Source: a virus
Virus record (IMG/VR): IMGVR_UViG_3300024348_000195
Span: 1-27,569 of that record
Direction: 5' to 3' (one strand)
DNA: 27,569 nt
A program made the translations under genes and the position numbers. Positions 8,157-25,273 of this stretch are shown here, one piece after another (positions within the stretch are counted from its first letter, which is position 1; each line of letters begins with the position of its first letter). The notes under the pieces are model-generated. The model was given only the letters and a program-made list of their open reading frames with translations. It was not told the DNA's origin and ran no database searches.

Positions 8157-8387
8157 TTGTACACAGATCAAATGCGTAGAGCCTTTCACTCTATCCTTCC
8201 TCCAAATAACTTTAAGATAGATTTAATTGATAATGAACATTTTTTAACAATTAAATTAGATGAGTATGTGTTTGCAAGGATGGTTCATGATGATAAAATA
8301 CAAGCCTTACAATATGTATTAAGCATTAAAAAAGCATTAGAAATGGAAGGTGCTATAGTTTTAGTTACAAGAGAGGCAATAAAATGA
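8157..8387 (+). CDS. Hypothetical protein between WhiB and halogenase
   Basis: 76 residues from a TTG directly after the WhiB stop; GGAA about eight bases upstream supports it. An ATG at 8172 is the alternative but has no ribosome site. Layout: short helix, strand pair (NEHFLTIKLDEYVFARM), helix (DKIQALQYVLSIKKALE), strand (AIVLVT). The gene ends in an ATGA overlap with the halogenase. Function unknown. Confidence 0.6.
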   Translation: MYTDQMRRAFHSILPPNNFKIDLIDNEHFLTIKLDEYVFARMVHDDKIQALQYVLSIKKALEMEGAIVLVTREAIK

Positions 8388-9928
8388 AAAACATAGTCAT
8401 TGTTGGCGGTGGGACTGCTGGTTGGTTAACAGCATTATATGCAAAAAAAACCTTTCCAAATGACAATGTTTCTGTTGTTCAAAGCAAGGAAATAGGAATT
8501 TTAGGGGCTGGAGAGGGAAGCACTCCAAACTTAGTTGCGCTATTTGATTATTTAGAAATACCAGTTTCTGATTTAATATCAAAAGCAAAAGCAACTATAA
8601 AAACAGGTATTAAATTTACAAATTGGTCAAAGGATAATAATTTTTATTATCATGATTTTGGTAAAAAATTTACATTGCCAAATGAAGACTTAATAAGTTA
8701 CAAACTTTCTGATTATGACGTTCAACTACAAGAAGATACCTTGCATATTATGCAAATTAATGAAAAAAATCAACCAGCATTTTCTTCTAGATATTCAGAA
8801 AAAAATTTAGTTCCATTTGTTTATAATGATACTTATAAAAATTCTAGCAACCCTATATATAATTTTGATCAAATGGGTAGTTGGTCCATTCACTTTGACG
8901 CAAAACTTTTAGCAAAATTGCTTGAAGAAATTGGATTAACTAGAGGTATTAATAATATTTTTGGAACTGTAAAAGATATTAATTCTGAAAATAATATTGA
9001 TATAGATAGTATAACTCTTAATGATGAAACTAAAATTAAAACAGATTTTATTTTTGACTGCACTGGATTTTATAAAGTTTTTATAGGAAAACATTTTAAA
9101 TCAGAGTGGGTAAGTTTTCAAGAATCTCTTCCAATGAAAAAAGCAATTCCATTTTTTATTGATATTGATAAAGAGAATATACCAGCATATACTGAGTCCA
9201 TTGCAATGAACTATGGATGGATGTGGAAGATTCCATTACAGCATAGATATGGTTGTGGGTACGTATATGATTCTGACTTTATTTCTAATGAAGATGCTAA
9301 AAAAGAAATAGAAAAATTTTTAGGATTTGAACCAGATTATCCTAAAGTTGATCCATTTTTATTTAATCCTGGATGTTATAAGGAAATATGGAAAGGAAAT
9401 TGTTTAGCGGTAGGGTTAGCATCAGCATTTGTTGAGCCTTTAGAAGCAACTTCTATTTTTCAAACAGTTGTAATGTTAAGATCATTTTTTGCAAATAAAC
9501 ACCACATTTTTAATAGAAATAACAAATATATTGAAAATTTTAATAAAGCATATTTAAAAAATACAGAAGAAGTAATGGATTTTATTTATTTACATTATAT
9601 GACAGATAAAAATAATAATGATTTTTGGATTAACTTTACAAATAAAAATAAAATGACAGAAAAATTAAAGGAAAAAGTTTTTTTATTAAATCAATCTATT
9701 TTAGCAGATTGGGATACAACGGTTCCATTTAGTAGCACAAGTTATTATCAGGTATCTTTTGGCATTAATTTATTAAATATTAATAATATTAAAGAAATTA
9801 TTAATGAAAACAATTTATCAAGATTTAATAAAAATGTAGAAAAAAATGAATTGATTATGAAAGAACTTTCTGACAATTTTATAACTCATTCTAACTTCTT
9901 AAAATTTATGGGAGGCTTTCAAGATTAA
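8384..9928 (+). CDS. FAD-dependent (tryptophan-type) halogenase
   Basis: Full-length, 514 residues. Flavin-dependent halogenases make HOX from FADH2, O2 and halide and pass it to the substrate through an active-site lysine. All family signatures are here: FAD fold GGGTAGW (8-14), GEGSTP (43-48), the catalytic lysine in TIKTGIKF (K73), the WxWxIP motif in GWMWKIP (W279-P284, which blocks mono-oxygenation), and the catalytic glutamate in FVEPLEATS (E354). The enzyme therefore looks active. The substrate may be free or carrier/protein-bound; it is not predictable. Cyanophage VirX1 is the known viral precedent for this family. It needs a flavin reductase, probably from the host. The start overlaps its neighbour (ATGA) and the end overlaps the next gene (ATTA). 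Confidence 0.93.
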   Translation: MKNIVIVGGGTAGWLTALYAKKTFPNDNVSVVQSKEIGILGAGEGSTPNLVALFDYLEIPVSDLISKAKATIKTGIKFTNWSKDNNFYYHDFGKKFTLPNEDLISYKLSDYDVQLQEDTLHIMQINEKNQPAFSSRYSEKNLVPFVYNDTYKNSSNPIYNFDQMGSWSIHFDAKLLAKLLEEIGLTRGINNIFGTVKDINSENNIDIDSITLNDETKIKTDFIFDCTGFYKVFIGKHFKSEWVSFQESLPMKKAIPFFIDIDKENIPAYTESIAMNYGWMWKIPLQHRYGCGYVYDSDFISNEDAKKEIEKFLGFEPDYPKVDPFLFNPGCYKEIWKGNCLAVGLASAFVEPLEATSIFQTVVMLRSFFANKHHIFNRNNKYIENFNKAYLKNTEEVMDFIYLHYMTDKNNNDFWINFTNKNKMTEKLKEKVFLLNQSILADWDTTVPFSSTSYYQVSFGINLLNINNIKEIINENNLSRFNKNVEKNELIMKELSDNFITHSNFLKFMGGFQD

Positions 9929-11761: not shown

Positions 11762-11793
11762 GCCAGTCTAGAGATAGGCTGGCTTTTTTGTTT
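11762..11793 (+). terminator. Rho-independent terminator
   Basis: GCCAGTCTA and TAGGCTGGC form a nine-pair stem with one G-U pair around a GAGA tetraloop, followed by TTTTTTGTTTT. It ends the + strand block. The convergent sugar cluster stops at 11793, in the T run. No matching T run faces the - strand. Confidence 0.88.
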
Positions 11794-12824
11794 TAAGAAT
11801 TAATAATATCTATATATTTTTGTTTTAATGACTCTCTTGAAAAATGTTCAAACCCTAAATTAAATGCTTTTGTTTTCATTGCTTGTTTATCACTAACAAT
11901 ATAGTTATCAATAAGTTTAGCAAGTGATTTAGGATTAACAGACCAAACACCAACAGTTGCTTTAGCCTTAAACCTATCAATTTTGTCAGCCTCTAGTGTC
12001 CATTCATCTGGTAATACAGTTGTATTAGGAGAAATCCTGGGCATAAAAACTGGTAGCCCACTCATCAATGCCTCATTCATTGGTAAACATAAACCAGCAT
12101 ATCTTCTAGGCAATACCATTGCATCGTAACCAGAGTAGAGATCCTGTTTGTTTGCAACGTTATCTGTTTCTATAATAACTCTTTCATCTGTTGTTTTAAT
12201 CTCTAAAGGTGTTTGTGTTTTAATAACTAATTTATAATCTTCTCTTGAATAATTAAGCATCTGAATAACCGTTTCGGTACCGTTGCGATCTTTAACGGCT
12301 GCCTTGCCAGCAACATGCAAGATCCTTCTATGGTCTTGTGTATTTATATTTCTTACATCTTTAAATAACTCTGCGTCAGTTGGTGGCGGTAGATGAATAA
12401 CTTCACATCTATCACCATATAGATTCTTGATATCATTTATATGCCAAGTGCTTGGAGCCAATAATACATCTGGCAAGGACCAATCTTCGTGTTGTAAGTT
12501 ACCTAAAAATTCATAGTTATATTGAAGAATTGTTTTTATACCAGCCATTCTAGCCATGTCAACAAGTTGTTGTGAGTAAAATGTTTCACAACTAATAACA
12601 ACATCAAGGTTTTGTAAAAATGCTTTTACTTCTCCTTGTCTAGGAAACCCTCTGTCTGTCGTAATACAGTCATAACCTGCATACCACTCAGGATGTTGTT
12701 CATTTTGATTAAAAAAACTTGAGTTAATGAGTAAAATTTTGTCAGGATTTAACATGTTTACTAGTTCTCTGGTTTGATTACCCAGGCCAGTGTTGTCAGA
12801 TCTTGCTATGATTCCTAGTCTCAT
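11793..12824 (-). CDS. GT-B glycosyltransferase (GT4-like)
   Basis: 343 residues. The C-terminal half holds the donor-binding signature YAGLCLPMNEALMSGLPVFMP, with the E-x7-E-like pattern of GT4 enzymes, and a preceding HVAGKAAVKDRNGTE segment like the GT4 linker. The N-terminus (MRLGIIARSDNTGLGNQTRE) is the glycine-rich acceptor-side loop. It should transfer a sugar from a nucleotide donor in the cytoplasm. It is the last gene of a six-gene - strand cluster and overlaps its upstream neighbour by four bases. Confidence 0.8.
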   Translation of the reverse strand: MRLGIIARSDNTGLGNQTRELVNMLNPDKILLINSSFFNQNEQHPEWYAGYDCITTDRGFPRQGEVKAFLQNLDVVISCETFYSQQLVDMARMAGIKTILQYNYEFLGNLQHEDWSLPDVLLAPSTWHINDIKNLYGDRCEVIHLPPPTDAELFKDVRNINTQDHRRILHVAGKAAVKDRNGTETVIQMLNYSREDYKLVIKTQTPLEIKTTDERVIIETDNVANKQDLYSGYDAMVLPRRYAGLCLPMNEALMSGLPVFMPRISPNTTVLPDEWTLEADKIDRFKAKATVGVWSVNPKSLAKLIDNYIVSDKQAMKTKAFNLGFEHFSRESLKQKYIDIINS

Positions 12825-13579
12825 TCTTTATATCCCCAAAAATTATCATCTGTAGTAAATTTTTTATGACCATCACGGCCATCTAAATGGTAAGACCTTT
12901 TAATGTTTGTGTCAGGATGATAGATCCATAACTTGTGTATATCCCAGCCATCTTTGTTAAAAATATCATATGGCAAAATATCATCTTGAACCCTGCCATG
13001 AAAGGTATCTTCTATAAAAAAGAATTTGTCACATGATGGCAAGACAACATCTCTATAATAACTTTTGGTTGTTAAGTGTGGACGTTGGCTCCATTGTGCA
13101 GTCTGTAAAAATCCATCCTCTAAATCAAACATTAAGTGCTTGTGAGGTTCTGGAATAAAGGCTTCAAAGTGAAAACGAATAGTGTTTGCTTTGCCATACT
13201 CAATCATATCTAAACACTTTTCCCAATCAATGGGGTCAAGTGTAAGAGGAGCATCTCCCTCAACATAAAGAAGCAATGATGTTTTTATTTCTGACATTGT
13301 TCTACGCATCATTCCTGTTTGGTGTATATGACTCTCAAAAACCATTGGCAAAACATTTTTATATTCATGCAAACATTTCCATAAAATACGATTTTTATAT
13401 TCATCATAGTCTGCTTTGCGGTGATTTTGTTCTCTTCTTAATCCATCAATTTGCATGATTATCTCGTTATCTGGAAAATGAAATCTAATAGACTTAATTG
13501 TTTCATCTATGATATCTGTACTTGGATGAGATGGCAAAACAGAAGTTACCACAACAATAGTTATATCTCTTTTATGCAT
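12821..13579 (-). CDS. GT-A type glycosyltransferase-like protein
   Basis: 252 residues. The start, ITIVVVTSVLPSHPSTDIIDETIKSI, is the GT-A nucleotide-sugar strand with its following helix; DNEIIMQIDG and LLLYVEGDAP supply acidic residues in the place of the DxD metal site. A family 2-like fold is likely, but only part of the motif set is visible. It overlaps the next gene upstream by eight bases, so it is co-translated in the sugar cluster. Confidence 0.68.
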   Translation of the reverse strand: MHKRDITIVVVTSVLPSHPSTDIIDETIKSIRFHFPDNEIIMQIDGLRREQNHRKADYDEYKNRILWKCLHEYKNVLPMVFESHIHQTGMMRRTMSEIKTSLLLYVEGDAPLTLDPIDWEKCLDMIEYGKANTIRFHFEAFIPEPHKHLMFDLEDGFLQTAQWSQRPHLTTKSYYRDVVLPSCDKFFFIEDTFHGRVQDDILPYDIFNKDGWDIHKLWIYHPDTNIKRSYHLDGRDGHKKFTTDDNFWGYKE

Positions 13580-14444
13580 TTAGTTGCTCCATTATTCTAC
13601 TACCTAAATCTCTTTTATATTTAATCCACCAAGAAACAACTTTGTGCATATTGCTTGGATAGTTTTCTAATAAATCTGGCAGAAGTTCTTGAATATTATT
13701 CCAGTTATCTAAAGATTCAACAGGGAATTCGGGACCAAACATTTTTTTATAAAACTTTGTCTCTGTCATGCTTGGATCTAGTTTATCTGCAATTGGAAGA
13801 GTTAATAATTCTATTGATTCAAAGAATCTAAATGTATCTATTACTGCTGCCCCAGATGGACATGGAGCAATCTTTGCACTTGAAAGTTTGGCATAGTAAT
13901 CTTTTGGCTTATCTCCAAGTGAAAACCCTTTTGTTGGTCCATAGAGTGAATTTTTTAACCTTGGCATAACTGAGGCTAATTCTTTTCTCCTTGAGTGTGT
14001 TATCTGTCCACCAAAATATACATCATATTCTTTTTCTTTATACTCTGGAACGTTGTCCTTTAGGTGTTGTGGAACTCCAATTGGCATCTTGTTATATTGA
14101 TCATGCTTTTCATGAGGGTATTGAATCCATATCTCAATATTATTATGTCTAATTTTACTTACATCAAACCTAGCATTCTCATCTCCATTAATAAATAAAA
14201 CAACTCTAGAAAGTTTATTTAATTCATTAGACAAGAGTTCTTCATTGCCCGCAGTCTGTGGTCCAGGAATTACAACAAAGGCTTTATCTGCTTTTGGAAT
14301 CTCTGTAACCCTTGTTTGATCTACTTCATACTTATCAAATATTTCTTTTAATAATCCATAATCCCATTTGTCATTTGCATAGTCTTGTCCATCATGAGAA
14401 TATAAGTATGCGTTATATTGATTCATAATATAAGTGAACCTCAT
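13572..14444 (-). CDS. Exostosin/GT47-like glycosyltransferase
   Basis: 290 residues from ATG 14444; an ATG at 14426 is also possible, and neither has a clear ribosome site. The C-terminal half reads like the exostosin domain: YFGGQITHSRRKEL, then SLGDKPKDYYAKLSSAKIAPCPSGAAVIDTFRFFES and LLTLPIAD, matching the SKFxLxPxG...sxRxxEal...PVi pattern. Such enzymes extend glycan chains. It overlaps the methyltransferase gene by 32 bases. Confidence 0.68.
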   Translation of the reverse strand: MRFTYIMNQYNAYLYSHDGQDYANDKWDYGLLKEIFDKYEVDQTRVTEIPKADKAFVVIPGPQTAGNEELLSNELNKLSRVVLFINGDENARFDVSKIRHNNIEIWIQYPHEKHDQYNKMPIGVPQHLKDNVPEYKEKEYDVYFGGQITHSRRKELASVMPRLKNSLYGPTKGFSLGDKPKDYYAKLSSAKIAPCPSGAAVIDTFRFFESIELLTLPIADKLDPSMTETKFYKKMFGPEFPVESLDNWNNIQELLPDLLENYPSNMHKVVSWWIKYKRDLGSRIMEQLNA

Positions 14445-15126
14445 GCTGATAGTCTAAAATTATTTCAGTATAACCTAATCCTTTAATCCATTGTCTAAGA
14501 TTATATAAAGATTCATTCCATTGCTGTAGCATAAACTCAGGGTGTCCAGATAACCAAATCTTTGGTTTGTGCTCTCTAAGCACCCTCTCAGCCCCTCCTA
14601 GGACCCTCCACTCACTACCCTCTACGTCCAAGGAAATGGCGGTAGGTGGTTTAATACCATGATCATATACACAGGAGTCTATAGTAATCTGACCATATGT
14701 TTCTCCTTCAAGGTATAGTTCTTTAAATCCGTGGGCTGCTTCAATTACATCGTTAACTTCTGGTGGCCATTCATTATAATATATTCTTGAAAGACTGTTT
14801 ATCTTATCAGATGCAAATCCAGGAATACAAACCATTGGAAGATCTAAATTGTTTGCACTCCAGAGTAGTGGAAAGTGTGACCAGACTTTGGGGTTTGGCT
14901 CAAATACAACTACTTCCGCACCCCACATTTGACATAGTGCAGCAAACTCGCCTTCTTCTGCACCAACATAATACATAACATCTCCAGAAAAAATATTTTC
15001 AGACATGTGTTTTAGTCTTGGTTTTTCCCAACCATGTGGTTGATACCAATCAGGACGTGCAGCACGATGCTCTGGTAAAGTAATTTCAAACTCACCATTA
15101 ACTATTACTTTTTTCATCTCAGTCAT
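14413..15126 (-). CDS. FkbM-family SAM-dependent methyltransferase
   Basis: 237 residues. The SAM site YVGAEEGEF (53-61), FEPNP (75-79) and the FkbM signature SLDVEGSEWRVLGGAERVL (165-183) are all present. The family methylates hydroxyl groups, often on sugars, so capping or decorating the glycan made by this cluster is likely. An ATG at 15117 is an alternative start. The codons for the VEGSEW motif (about 14578-14640) are markedly richer in G and C than the rest of the gene, like the patch in the APS kinase fusion. Confidence 0.85.
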   Translation of the reverse strand: MTEMKKVIVNGEFEITLPEHRAARPDWYQPHGWEKPRLKHMSENIFSGDVMYYVGAEEGEFAALCQMWGAEVVVFEPNPKVWSHFPLLWSANNLDLPMVCIPGFASDKINSLSRIYYNEWPPEVNDVIEAAHGFKELYLEGETYGQITIDSCVYDHGIKPPTAISLDVEGSEWRVLGGAERVLREHKPKIWLSGHPEFMLQQWNESLYNLRQWIKGLGYTEIILDYQHEVHLYYESI

Positions 15127-16006
15127 CTTGTAACCAATCCATTAAAGATACTTTTGGTGTCCATCCCGTTAAACCTTTAAACTTTTCATTAGACGCAAGA
15201 GTTTCTTGCACTTCCCCAATTCTTGACGGGATAAACTTAACATCATTTGAAATCATATTAGCAATATCAATTATAGAGTAATTACTTCCATACCCAATGT
15301 TATACACCTCACCAAAGCCATGACTTACTTCAGATGCAAGAATGTTTGCTTCTACTACATCAGATATATGTGTAAAGTCTCTGCTCTGAGATCCGTCTCC
15401 AACAACTGTCAATGGTTTTCTTTCATGATATTGCTTTAAGAATAATCCTATTACTGGTGCATACTGACCTTTTAGTGGTTGTCTATCTCCATAAACATTA
15501 AAGTATCTAAGTGATATAGTCTCAAGACCATAAAGATTATAGTAAACTCTTGCAAGGTTTTCACCGAATACTTTTGCTGCAGAGTATGGTGTTAGTGGGT
15601 CAGATGGTTGTGTTTCTATGTTTGGAAGTATTGCTTTCTTACCATAGGCAGATGATGTACTAGAATAAACAAACTTCTTTACTTTTGCTAAGCGAGATAG
15701 TTCTAATACATTAGCAGTTCCCACTGCGTTAGACTCAATAGATTTTCTAGGGTTTAAGATTGCTGGCTGAATTCTTGCATCAGATGCAATATGGAATACA
15801 TAGTCAATTCCATTAAATAAATGCTCTATCTGTTTATAATCACATATATCATATTTATAATTATTTGCTTTTGGGTTCCAGTAAAATTGCTCATGACACT
15901 CTGCTGACTCATTATCTATACAGATAACATTATGACCAAGGTCTATAAGTTTATCAACAAGGTTGGATCCAATGAATCCTGCTCCTCCAGTTACTAAGCA
16001 ATTCAT
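15119..16006 (-). CDS. NAD-dependent sugar epimerase/dehydratase (extended SDR)
   Basis: 295 residues. NAD-binding GGAGFIGS (7-14), the SSTSSAYG strand (115-122), and the catalytic YxxxK as Y141-SAA-K145. RYFNVYGDRQP and RDFTHISDVV are the usual substrate-side motifs of UDP-glucose 4-epimerase and related enzymes. It should make the sugar nucleotide used by the neighbouring transferases; the exact sugar cannot be told. It overlaps both neighbours by four to eight bases. Confidence 0.88.
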   Translation of the reverse strand: MNCLVTGGAGFIGSNLVDKLIDLGHNVICIDNESAECHEQFYWNPKANNYKYDICDYKQIEHLFNGIDYVFHIASDARIQPAILNPRKSIESNAVGTANVLELSRLAKVKKFVYSSTSSAYGKKAILPNIETQPSDPLTPYSAAKVFGENLARVYYNLYGLETISLRYFNVYGDRQPLKGQYAPVIGLFLKQYHERKPLTVVGDGSQSRDFTHISDVVEANILASEVSHGFGEVYNIGYGSNYSIIDIANMISNDVKFIPSRIGEVQETLASNEKFKGLTGWTPKVSLMDWLQDD

Positions 16007-16959
16007 TTAATACCCAACTCTTCTAAGATTGCAGTCCATCTATGGACATAAGTATGTTCTTTCTTTGTACGGTTATGACCGTTAACTCTGATTCTTTCTC
16101 GTACTAAAGAGTTTTCAAGATACTGATCTATCTTATCTCTTAAGTTATTAAAGTCTCCGTGCTTGTAGAATACAACTTCATCAGGCATAAAGTATTCATC
16201 TAAGCCCTTAATTTCTGGGTAGATGGTAAAACCACCACGACCAGTAGATTCAAACAATCTATCACTAGTATAATAGGGATACTCAAAGCCTATGTTAAGA
16301 CTATCTCCTACTGCGATCTTACTCTTAGCATAGATACGGTTTAATGCATCACCACGAATAGTTCCAGTATCTCCATCGCCACCAACGTGAAGGAATCGTT
16401 TGCCGTATGTCTTTCTTAAGAAATCAATTAGTTCTGGGCGATACTTGTGTTCATGGTGATATCTTCTACTGCCAACAAAAATAACATCGTACTCAAAGTT
16501 TTGTGTGTCATAGTCTGGGTGGATGTAACATTCTTTATCGTATACCCCTGCAGGCATGAAGTGGCCTTTTACTGCGGTATTGTGATCAAACCAATCAGCC
16601 ATAAGTTTATCTACGGTAAAGAAATGTCCAATAGTTCTATAGAAACTATCATGCTTAAGATCGTTTTGTCTATCAAGGCCAAACCATAAATCTAAATGAT
16701 ATGTCATTGTTGGAACACCACTAGAGTTAAGTTTATTAAGAACTTCATCCATTGTAATATTTCCAATGGTTTCCCAGCCATGTGTGTGTACCCAAATAAA
16801 TAGATCAGAGGTTGATGCTTTTTCTAGGATGGTTTGTGTCTTGGCTTTACGCTCCTGCAATTTTGTCACGGTATGGCCTAAAGACTCTAAACTACTAGCA
16901 TGATGATTCTCACTACTATAAGATACTTCAAAATTGCCAAGAAAAACTATATTAGCCAA
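16003..16959 (-). CDS. CgeB-like glycosyltransferase (Glyco_trans_1_2)
   Basis: 318 residues from a TTG at 16959, supported by AAAGGGG five bases upstream. The N-terminus (IVFLGNFEVSYSSENHHASSLESLGH) is the acceptor domain, and YTSDRLFESTGRGGFTIYPEIKGLDEYF is the donor-side signature of the CgeB/Glyco_trans_1_2 group. It is the first gene of the sugar cluster, with a TATAAT -10 at 16982-16987. The group adds sugars to spore or surface polymers in bacteria. Confidence 0.78.
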   Translation of the reverse strand: MANIVFLGNFEVSYSSENHHASSLESLGHTVTKLQERKAKTQTILEKASTSDLFIWVHTHGWETIGNITMDEVLNKLNSSGVPTMTYHLDLWFGLDRQNDLKHDSFYRTIGHFFTVDKLMADWFDHNTAVKGHFMPAGVYDKECYIHPDYDTQNFEYDVIFVGSRRYHHEHKYRPELIDFLRKTYGKRFLHVGGDGDTGTIRGDALNRIYAKSKIAVGDSLNIGFEYPYYTSDRLFESTGRGGFTIYPEIKGLDEYFMPDEVVFYKHGDFNNLRDKIDQYLENSLVRERIRVNGHNRTKKEHTYVHRWTAILEELGIK

Positions 16960-22939: not shown

Positions 22940-23080
22940 TTATGGCATACATAGCATACAGGCACAGTTTACTTCATGATAGTATGCTGGATTACATTTA
23001 GGACATTTGTCTGTTGGTTGGTTAATATAGGAAGGAACCTCAAACATTAAACCACAGTTAAAGCATAGTATATTTGCCAT
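22940..23080 (-). CDS. 46-residue zinc-ribbon protein, leaderless
   Basis: LCFNCGLMFEV and KCPKCNPAYY are two CxxC knuckles, and the C-terminus adds CACMLCMP, so there are six or seven cysteines in 46 residues. It is the gene nearest the left side of the putative origin. Function unknown. Confidence 0.6.
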   Translation of the reverse strand: MANILCFNCGLMFEVPSYINQPTDKCPKCNPAYYHEVNCACMLCMP

Positions 23081-23086
23081 GTATCC

Positions 23087-23115
23087 AGCATATCACAGAT
23101 GGCCAGAAAGATCAA
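23087..23115 (-). promoter_or_regulatory. Leaderless promoter for the 22940-23080 gene
   Basis: On the - strand TTGATC (23110-23115), 17 bases, TATGCT (23087-23092), six bases, ATG. It lies about 30 bases from the first DnaA box, so DnaA or origin melting could affect it. Confidence 0.68.
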
Positions 23116-23145
23116 TACCGTTTGAAATATGGGATGGTTTGAAGG

Positions 23146-23198
23146 TTATCCACAAGGTTTATGGCTAAATAATGTTAGTTATCCACAAGTTATCCACA
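23146..23198 (+). other. Putative origin: three DnaA boxes
   Basis: TTATCCACA, the perfect DnaA box, occurs at 23146-23154, 23179-23187 and 23190-23198, all in the same direction. The first two are 33 bases apart and the last two 11, so all face the same side of the helix. An AT-rich stretch (about 23199-23236) and a tandem AAAGTGGAGGA pair (23233-23253) follow. The gap 23081-23603 holds no gene I can support. Confidence 0.7.
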
Positions 23199-23355
23199 AT
23201 TAAATGTTACTGATATTTTTTAGATTTATCTTAAAGTGGAGGAAAGTGGAGGATAGTGGGTTATTGGGCACTTATTAGAGGGGCTCGTAATCCCGCAGCG
23301 GACAAACCTCCCCTTCCCAAACCTTCAAACCTTTACATATCAAACCTTTGCCTGG

Positions 23356-23384
23356 ATTATACTCCCAAACCTCCCATTTGTCAA
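23356..23384 (-). promoter_or_regulatory. Perfect consensus promoter in the origin region, no ORF downstream
   Basis: On the - strand TTGACA (23379-23384), 17 bases holding an AGGTTTG, TATAAT (23356-23361). Transcription would run left through four more heptamers toward the DnaA boxes. The first downstream ATG is followed at once by TAA. A non-coding or primer RNA is possible. Confidence 0.7.
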
Positions 23385-23603
23385 CCATATTTGATAACGA
23401 TTTGATAACAAAACCCTATATAAAACCTTGCAGAAATGTGAGAAAAATGTAGAAAACCTTACATAAAAATCTATAAAGGTTTGATAATATTCTAAAATCC
23501 AGGGAAAAATATATGTCCTTCGTAATGTCTTTTATACTATGGGGTTTGGTATATCTTTCTGGATCCCCCAATAAATTCCGTGGGTTCGTAATGTCTGATA
23601 AGA

Positions 23604-23720
23604 CTATTTGAAATGCTTGCGACGCAAGACCGCCAAAATACGGCGGTATATAGAAGGATGATCTTTACCCCTAGTATAACTACGAGAGTTACCAAACCTT
23701 GCAAAGTATCTTTTAGGCAT
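23604..23720 (-). CDS. Possible 38-residue basic protein, leaderless
   Basis: ATG 23720 is six bases after TATAAT (23727-23732), though without a -35 match. MPKRYFARFGNSRSYTRGK...IYRRILAVLRRKHFK has about one third basic residues, fitting nucleic-acid binding. Its last part contains two GC-rich hairpins (23616-23628 and 23629-23647), which may be the reason for this sequence instead. Moderate to low confidence. Confidence 0.4.
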   Translation of the reverse strand: MPKRYFARFGNSRSYTRGKDHPSIYRRILAVLRRKHFK

Positions 23721-23746
23721 ATAATTATTATACACTGGCTTTAAGG

Positions 23747-23807
23747 TTTGACATGCAAAGGTTTGTATGGTATAAGGGTTTGACAAACAAGGTTTGATAT
23801 GCTAGAA
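23747..23807 (+). promoter_or_regulatory. Tandem + strand promoters with the heptamer in each spacer
   Basis: P1: TTGACA (23747-23752), 17 bases, TATAAG (23770-23775). P2: TTGACA (23779-23784), 17 bases, TAGAAT (23802-23807). Both spacers contain AGGTTTG and both -35 boxes overlap or abut another copy. Downstream there is only the antisense of - strand genes, so an RNA, not a protein, is the likely product. Confidence 0.65.
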
Positions 23808-23907
23808 TCCTGCAAAATTTTTTATTGGTTCGTAATGTCTAGAATCCTGGGAAAAAGATCTTCGATTCGTAATAAGGTTTGATGGTTGAAAGGTTTGTCG
23901 AAAAATC

Positions 23908-24770: not shown

Positions 24771-25127
24771 CTACTCCCCCACCAGCGCAGCGACAGGCAT
24801 ATACGCCTGTACAAATAGGTCCCATTGGACTGGTACGTTATCAGTAACAGTCTTATTAACAAAATCAATAATCACTGTCTGCTCACCTAGGTCAAAGTTA
24901 TCCCCAGTCACAGAATAAATACCAAACCCTGTTTCATCTAAAATGTTATGCTGAATAAGATAACTGATCATCATACGTGTTCCATATGCAGCGTCACCCC
25001 ATCGTGGCTTTGAATGCTCTAGGGCTCCAGCAATGTCCCGCTCCCATCCATCCTGTCCCCAGTGGCTGTATAGGACAACCGATGAGTCAGTACCGTCTTT
25101 AAATACAAAGTTAATCCGTGCTCCCAT
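24771..25127 (-). CDS. Conserved phage protein with LYSHWGQ motif
   Basis: 118 residues from ATG 25127, which overlaps the upstream stop by one base (TAATG). INFVFKDGTDSSVVLYSHWGQDGWERD is followed by RWGDAAYGTRMMISYLI and TGFGIYS. I recall this pattern from actinophage proteins without known function. The His-Trp-Gly string and conserved acidic residues suggest a binding site. Confidence 0.68.
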   Translation of the reverse strand: MGARINFVFKDGTDSSVVLYSHWGQDGWERDIAGALEHSKPRWGDAAYGTRMMISYLIQHNILDETGFGIYSVTGDNFDLGEQTVIIDFVNKTVTDNVPVQWDLFVQAYMPVAALVGE

Positions 25128-25273
25128 TATTCGTCTACCTTCCAAGATACAATTGATAATTGGTTTAATACTTCATTGCAGAGGTCTGTCTCATTATCTG
25201 ATTCAGCCTCATATGTAAAATTCATAAAATGGCCATTGGGTTCAAATATTACTTCTACTTCATAGTTAGGCAT
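25127..25273 (-). CDS. 48-residue acidic protein
   Basis: ATG 25273 overlaps the upstream stop by eight bases; the end overlaps the next ATG by one. NYEVEVIFEPNGHFMNFTYEA forms two strands, then an acidic helix. Function unknown. Confidence 0.55.
   Translation of the reverse strand: MPNYEVEVIFEPNGHFMNFTYEAESDNETDLCNEVLNQLSIVSWKVDE

Follow-up and report, generated by a model that had tools for sequence, protein, structure and literature searches.

DnaA boxes in phage genomes are already known, and in E. coli, with R1 written as TTATCCACA, the unwinding element likewise sits on the 3′ side of this box. Bacterial origins are predicted to have in common a pair of DnaA boxes, up to 16 bp of spacer and three or more NAN triplets (PMC8287927). 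In Helicobacter, the trios located downstream of the boxes read CTA on the complementary strand, one being 3′-GAC-5′ (PMC8235120). Moreover, the T5 injection stop signal has been described as containing repeats, palindromes and DnaA boxes (PMC13250531). The phage locus analysed here resembles a bacterial origin with a basal unwinding system in its tandem, same-strand, high-affinity boxes, its short spacer and its AT-rich, trio-like NAN run on the expected strand. However, it is phage-borne, its spacer places the run 8 nt from the proximal box, its trio-like triplets are rarely GAT, no dnaA or dnaN adjoins it, its boxes are exchangeable, and 10-bp GTGGAG repeats and an inward promoter are added. 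Theta plasmid and P1-type origins likewise combine DnaA boxes, an AT-rich stretch and short direct repeats, but no rep gene was recognised alongside this locus, and 10-bp repeats with scattered GGTTTG are found instead of iterons of ~20 bp.

The window, that is, the whole stretch of DNA that was analysed, is a linear 27.6-kb IMG/VR fragment of a lake-virus genome. Scanning all of it returned three exact TTATCCACA boxes on the + strand, without any mismatch and with start-to-start spacings of 33 and 11 bp, and no further exact copy (Table 1). Under Markov models of order 1 to order 3, the expectation for the entire window is 0.44–0.55 boxes, and that for three boxes on one strand in a 53-bp span is 2.6e-8 to 5.2e-8. 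These results agree with an earlier, sequence-only reading, which had described three perfect boxes in the same direction at these spacings as very unlikely by chance. That reading had also placed them in a gene-free region next to an AT-rich stretch and a tandem purine repeat, all of which were recovered. The AT-rich stretch (86% AT over 36 bp) belonged to the least stable 1–2% of the 30–36 bp windows (98th percentile of instability), the purine repeat comprised 2.7 copies of AAAGTGGAGG, and no ORF of at least 50 aa in the ORF list overlapped positions 23116–23302. A coding explanation for the element was rejected, given that no ORF of at least 50 aa runs across it and 1-bp indels occur between the boxes.

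Table 1. Features of the candidate origin and its surroundings, in window coordinates.
Feature	Position	Strand	Basis or remark
Non-coding control region with the element and GGTTTG/TCGTAAT repeats	23081..23907		ORF list, repeat enrichment; between leftward small genes
DnaA box 1, TTATCCACA	23146..23154	+	Exact match; position most variable, spacing near multiples of 11
Conserved element according to the family model	23175..23292	+	90.7 bits, E 1.2e-25; window itself among the 29 seeds
DnaA box 2, first of the conserved doublet	23179..23187	+	Exact match; family comparison
DnaA box 3, next to the AT-rich core	23190..23198	+	Exact match; family comparison
AT-rich stretch, candidate unwinding element with TTACTGAT core	23199..23234		86% AT; TTACTGAT near-invariant
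Trio-like run TTA CTG ATA TTT TTT	23207..23221	+	Opposite strand 3′-NAN-5′; 8 nt past the proximal box; resemblance to DnaA-trios only
Three 10-bp purine repeats AAGTGGAGGA (GTGGAG iterons)	23233..23259	+	Repeat scan, family alignment
TCGTAAT motif closing the element	23285..23291	+	Further copies at 23520, 23586, 23830, 23867
GGTTTG cluster (23303, 23318, 23326, 23341, 23366)	23303..23371	-	Between promoter and element
Leftward sigma-70 promoter TTGACA-17-TATAAT, pointing into the element	23356..23384	-	Perfect consensus; kept in ~90% of relatives
Rightward promoter-like site TTGACA-17-TAGAAT	23780..23808	+	In relatives, TTGACA enriched on the + strand at 400-700 bp to the right of the element

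Relatives were taken from a total of 51 viral contigs, which were fetched through the neighbouring protein at 24771–25145 (phrog_31860), a selection blind to the boxes. The element model was built on 29 seed sequences, the window included. As most seeds were drawn from the 51-contig set, the seed loci match by construction in the following counts: 47 of the 51 contigs matched at E<1e-5 and 3 more weakly, while one locus (L016) was cut off before the element site. Among the 50 element carriers, near-duplicate loci included (42 distinct 120-nt contexts), 36 presented an exact doublet spaced by 11 or 12 bp, 6 presented at least two boxes at another spacing or with one mismatch, and 8 presented none; these family counts are not independent observations, since the sequences are related. 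Furthermore, a pattern scan of viral contigs, selected for boxes and used for anatomy only, gave at least 120 loci, so the element appears to be common. No close DNA relative was found among sequenced phages. Acquisition of the element from a host or plasmid origin was also considered and rejected, with no plasmid match and two hits in genome collections. One of these was a chance match, and the other was the element itself, at 105 bits, in a 22.9-kb contig of a Chitinophagaceae MAG (L326, CANGYR010000020.1), which is probably a misbinned actinophage contig.

Across the family, the element was ~120–150 bp long; the site pointed out by the sequence-only reading was real, but the feature proved larger than described there. 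The boxes always lay on the + strand and at one end only (2.49 per 100 bp vs. about 0 elsewhere nearby), at distances near 11, 22, 33, 44, 55, 66 and 77 bp. The phasing claimed for the window thus holds family-wide, as the 29 distinct spacings clustered at 11 bp (phase concentration of 0.62 at 11.0 bp) and none of 20,000 random sets was as strong. In nearly all relatives, the proximal box was separated from the element end by 102–108 bp, and it was followed in order by eight bases, the near-invariant TTACTGAT, A/T bases, GTGGAG repeats at 10 bp and TCGTAAT. The middle base of successive triplets past the box was T with frequencies of 1.00, 1.00,.94,.92,.80 and.70, then.22, and central-T runs had a mean of 4.76 vs. 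2.90 in shuffled tails. The trio-like run comprised 5–6 central-T triplets and lay 8 nt past the box. Because AT-rich DNA readily yields such runs, this layout supports the origin reading without proving it. The CTG of the run would match the 3′-GAC-5′ trio of Helicobacter (PMC8235120). Regarding the GTGGAG repeats, they were lost in some members that keep the boxes. Reading them as weak inverted DnaA boxes (TCCTCCACT vs. TTATCCACA, 6/9 by eye) is possible but unsupported, because GTGGAG varies independently of the boxes.

Conservation of the boxes had been suggested as a check of the site, and it was borne out in most relatives, with at least two boxes kept in 42/50, but not in the eight that had none near the element. 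The latter retained the core and the trio-like run, which therefore need not serve DnaA, and carried GGTTTGA repeats at the box position (1.75 GTTTGA per 190 bp vs. 0.40 in the others). On the tree of the neighbouring gene, the box-less state required at least five changes; no more than two of these are imposed by well-supported branches, and some might be merely apparent, produced by recombination between the gene and the element. It is possible, though short of probable, that the phage origin contains a plug-in initiator module, with which most lineages would dock host DnaA and others would repeatedly have swapped the boxes for GGTTTGA arrays, probably read by a phage-encoded protein, with the same melting core and promoter. 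Alternatively, the origin might be run mainly by a phage protein binding GGTTTGA and/or GTGGAG, host DnaA being an accessory dropped by some lineages. This would fit the box-less members and their state changes, as well as the density of GGTTTG in the window and the 50 relatives, which was ten times higher at the element (8.1 per kb) than elsewhere (0.8 per kb), with boxes or without. Nevertheless, the GGTTTG copies were irregular in spacing and strand, and the boxes are widely kept with tight phasing. Moreover, the selected proteins of the window and of a 116-kb relative (G003) that were scanned included no recognised initiator, many small genes being without assignment, and no candidate gene was found for such a protein. 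This alternative is considered clearly unlikely.

The gap around the element extends over ~830 bp without a good gene, three overlapping minus-strand ORFs of 51–60 aa being listed at 23416–23786. Leftward small genes lie to its left and more leftward genes follow from 23908 on its right, and a zinc-ribbon-like ORF of 46 aa, judged by eye only, was located at about 22943–23080. Two features of this gap were absent from the sequence-only reading, namely its richness in GGTTTG (both strands) and TCGTAAT to the right of the element and the minus-strand promoter (23384–23356). The repeat cluster occurred once per ~110-kb genome in 6/6 near-complete relatives, where GGTTTG was densest in a window that coincided with the element or was no more than about 1 kb away, and TCGTAAT was densest beside the element. 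Furthermore, GGGGAAAA-N10-TCGTAAT units were found at 23480–23890 of the window and in the same region of relatives, always on the + strand and 34–49 bp apart in the relatives; a role of these units as late-gene promoters was discarded, as almost no copies appeared beyond the control region. Elsewhere in the window, a tryptophan-halogenase-like gene (8384–9928) and glycosyltransferases with an epimerase (11793–16959) were observed.

The promoter pointing into the element had 11 or 12 of the 12 consensus bases in 116/128 relatives, compared to a shuffled maximum of 10. In relatives such as L022, L244 and L251, a leftward hairpin resembling an intrinsic terminator was seen by eye ~160–180 bp to the right of the element; it immediately precedes the conserved promoter, which it would insulate from the upstream operon. 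Such a near-perfect promoter directed straight into the element is what would be expected if the boxes served transcription control or DnaA capture. According to this explanation, they would lie in the leader of a leftward transcript, where DnaA would block or tune the transcript, or be titrated to disturb host replication, with replication starting elsewhere. It would also account for the DnaA boxes at other intergenic sites, next to TGTGA-N6-TCACA palindromes, and for the exchange of boxes with GGTTTGA repeats, which also sit between promoter and element. However, a simple operator needs no box pair, no fixed spacer and no near-invariant AT-rich core, and no conserved RNA fold was found; this explanation is regarded as somewhat unlikely. 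A conserved non-coding RNA or structured leader is barely credible. The region is conserved and probably transcribed, and a C-rich, G-poor stretch of the leftward transcript might serve for Rho loading, but RNAalifold gave 0 pairs over 34 sequences, single folds were mostly near shuffled energies, and there was no Rfam match besides tRNAs.

Relatives also had a second group of DnaA boxes at several short intergenic spots outside the window, e.g. in L004 (reverse complement, about 17.3–19.8 kb), 7–10 kb right of the phrog_31860 gene. These boxes were often adjacent to palindromes of the form TGTGA-N6-TCACA (CRP/GlxR-like) and to GACACGCC motifs, included a pair spaced 42 bp in many genomes, and were present even where the main element had no boxes.

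A comparable arrangement was found in the Streptomyces phages Sham and Faust (Stanwilliamsviridae), where a doublet identical over 24 bases (AGTTATCCACAGGTTTATCCACAG) has the same orientation relative to the early genes. In contrast, the remainder could not be aligned and other repeats (GTTGAAC and TGTATTGCTACAA) were present there. The doublet lies in a gene-free gap of 1.4–1.5 kb that holds 3/3 and 3/4 of their exact boxes, which supports the origin reading, and we know of no function assigned to this gap. It also contains a TGTGACGTGCGTCACA palindrome (Sham, L328:5648-7038; Faust, L329).

In view of the T5 injection stop signal, with its repeats, palindromes and DnaA boxes (PMC13250531), a T5-type control of DNA entry was counted among the rival explanations; the element would then halt genome entry after the first segment. 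The gene-free, repeat-rich early region with DnaA boxes found here resembles that signal, and T5-like Salmonella phages carry a similar doublet in a pre-early gap. By contrast, the present locus has a conserved AT core and a trio-like run, without long palindromes or a shown terminal-repeat context; its contigs lack end repeats, with no known placement near a genome end, and in Sham a distance of 6.6 kb separates the box gap from the end, and the 787-bp terminal repeat does not include it. Entry control is considered very unlikely. In the T5-like Salmonella phage UTK0009 (L330:5400-6220), the pre-early intergenic gap contains TTATCCACAGGTTTATACACAGGTTATCC.

Genes for a DnaB-like helicase, a primase, a Pol III alpha subunit and a UvsX-like recombinase were identified in G003 at about 21–29 kb, ~40 kb from the element. 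The polymerase showed ~53–55% identity with its counterparts in Streptomyces phages belonging to Stanwilliamsviridae, which, together with a distant match to Actinomycetia phage DSL-LC01, suggests an actinobacterial host. The DnaA C-terminal domain (DnaA_C) was found in none of 14 related records, while 10/14 control genomes were positive. Together with the conservation, helical phasing and fixed orientation of the boxes, this makes it very probable that host DnaA binds them in vivo. Of the sequence-only reading, the implied binding of host DnaA is well supported by sequence, while its putative origin depends on anatomy, with GC skew against it. From the box pair, the spacer, the trio-like AT core, the single repeat-rich locus, the incoming promoter and the phage helicase, primase and polymerase, we infer with about even confidence that the element (~23146–23292) is a host-DnaA-assisted replication origin, or its core, of a large freshwater actinophage group.

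In such an origin, host DnaA would occupy the phased, same-strand boxes on one helix face, a step with strong sequence support, and a DnaA filament would grow 3′-ward across the 8-nt spacer and cover the AT-rich TTACTGAT core with its DnaA-trio-like triplets, so that the duplex would open. The transcript entering from the promoter may aid opening or prime synthesis; R-loop priming by a G-rich transcript was not favoured on reasoning, because the transcript is C/U-rich. The phage DnaB-like helicase, primase and Pol III alpha, known from the relative, would then be loaded, and the GTGGAG and GGTTTG repeats are probably bound by another, regulating protein. On the other hand, the further DnaA boxes at other intergenic sites of the same phages count against the origin reading, as do the eight box-less relatives, the loss of GTGGAG in some members and the ~40-kb distance to the replication genes. 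The same applies to the GC skew, proposed earlier as a check, as no turn was detected at the element and the cumulative skew in the six near-complete relatives turned with gene direction, although such a turn is not strictly required of an origin and is only weakly informative in phages. The four-fold-site skew of leftward genes to the left vs. right of the element was inconsistent.

As far as could be tested, neither this conserved, trio-like element in phages nor the swapping of its docking module has been described, no account of the element having been found in the literature searched, where subscription papers were mostly absent. With the sequence model of the element, these phages can be recognised in metagenomes. 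If the origin reading is true, common uncultured freshwater actinophages would start replication by host DnaA on a compact trio-like origin, which would accompany a phage-borne bacterial-type replisome. Furthermore, if the module exchange is true, its natural occurrence in relatives would make it possible to ask directly which features of an origin have to fit the initiator and which need only melt.
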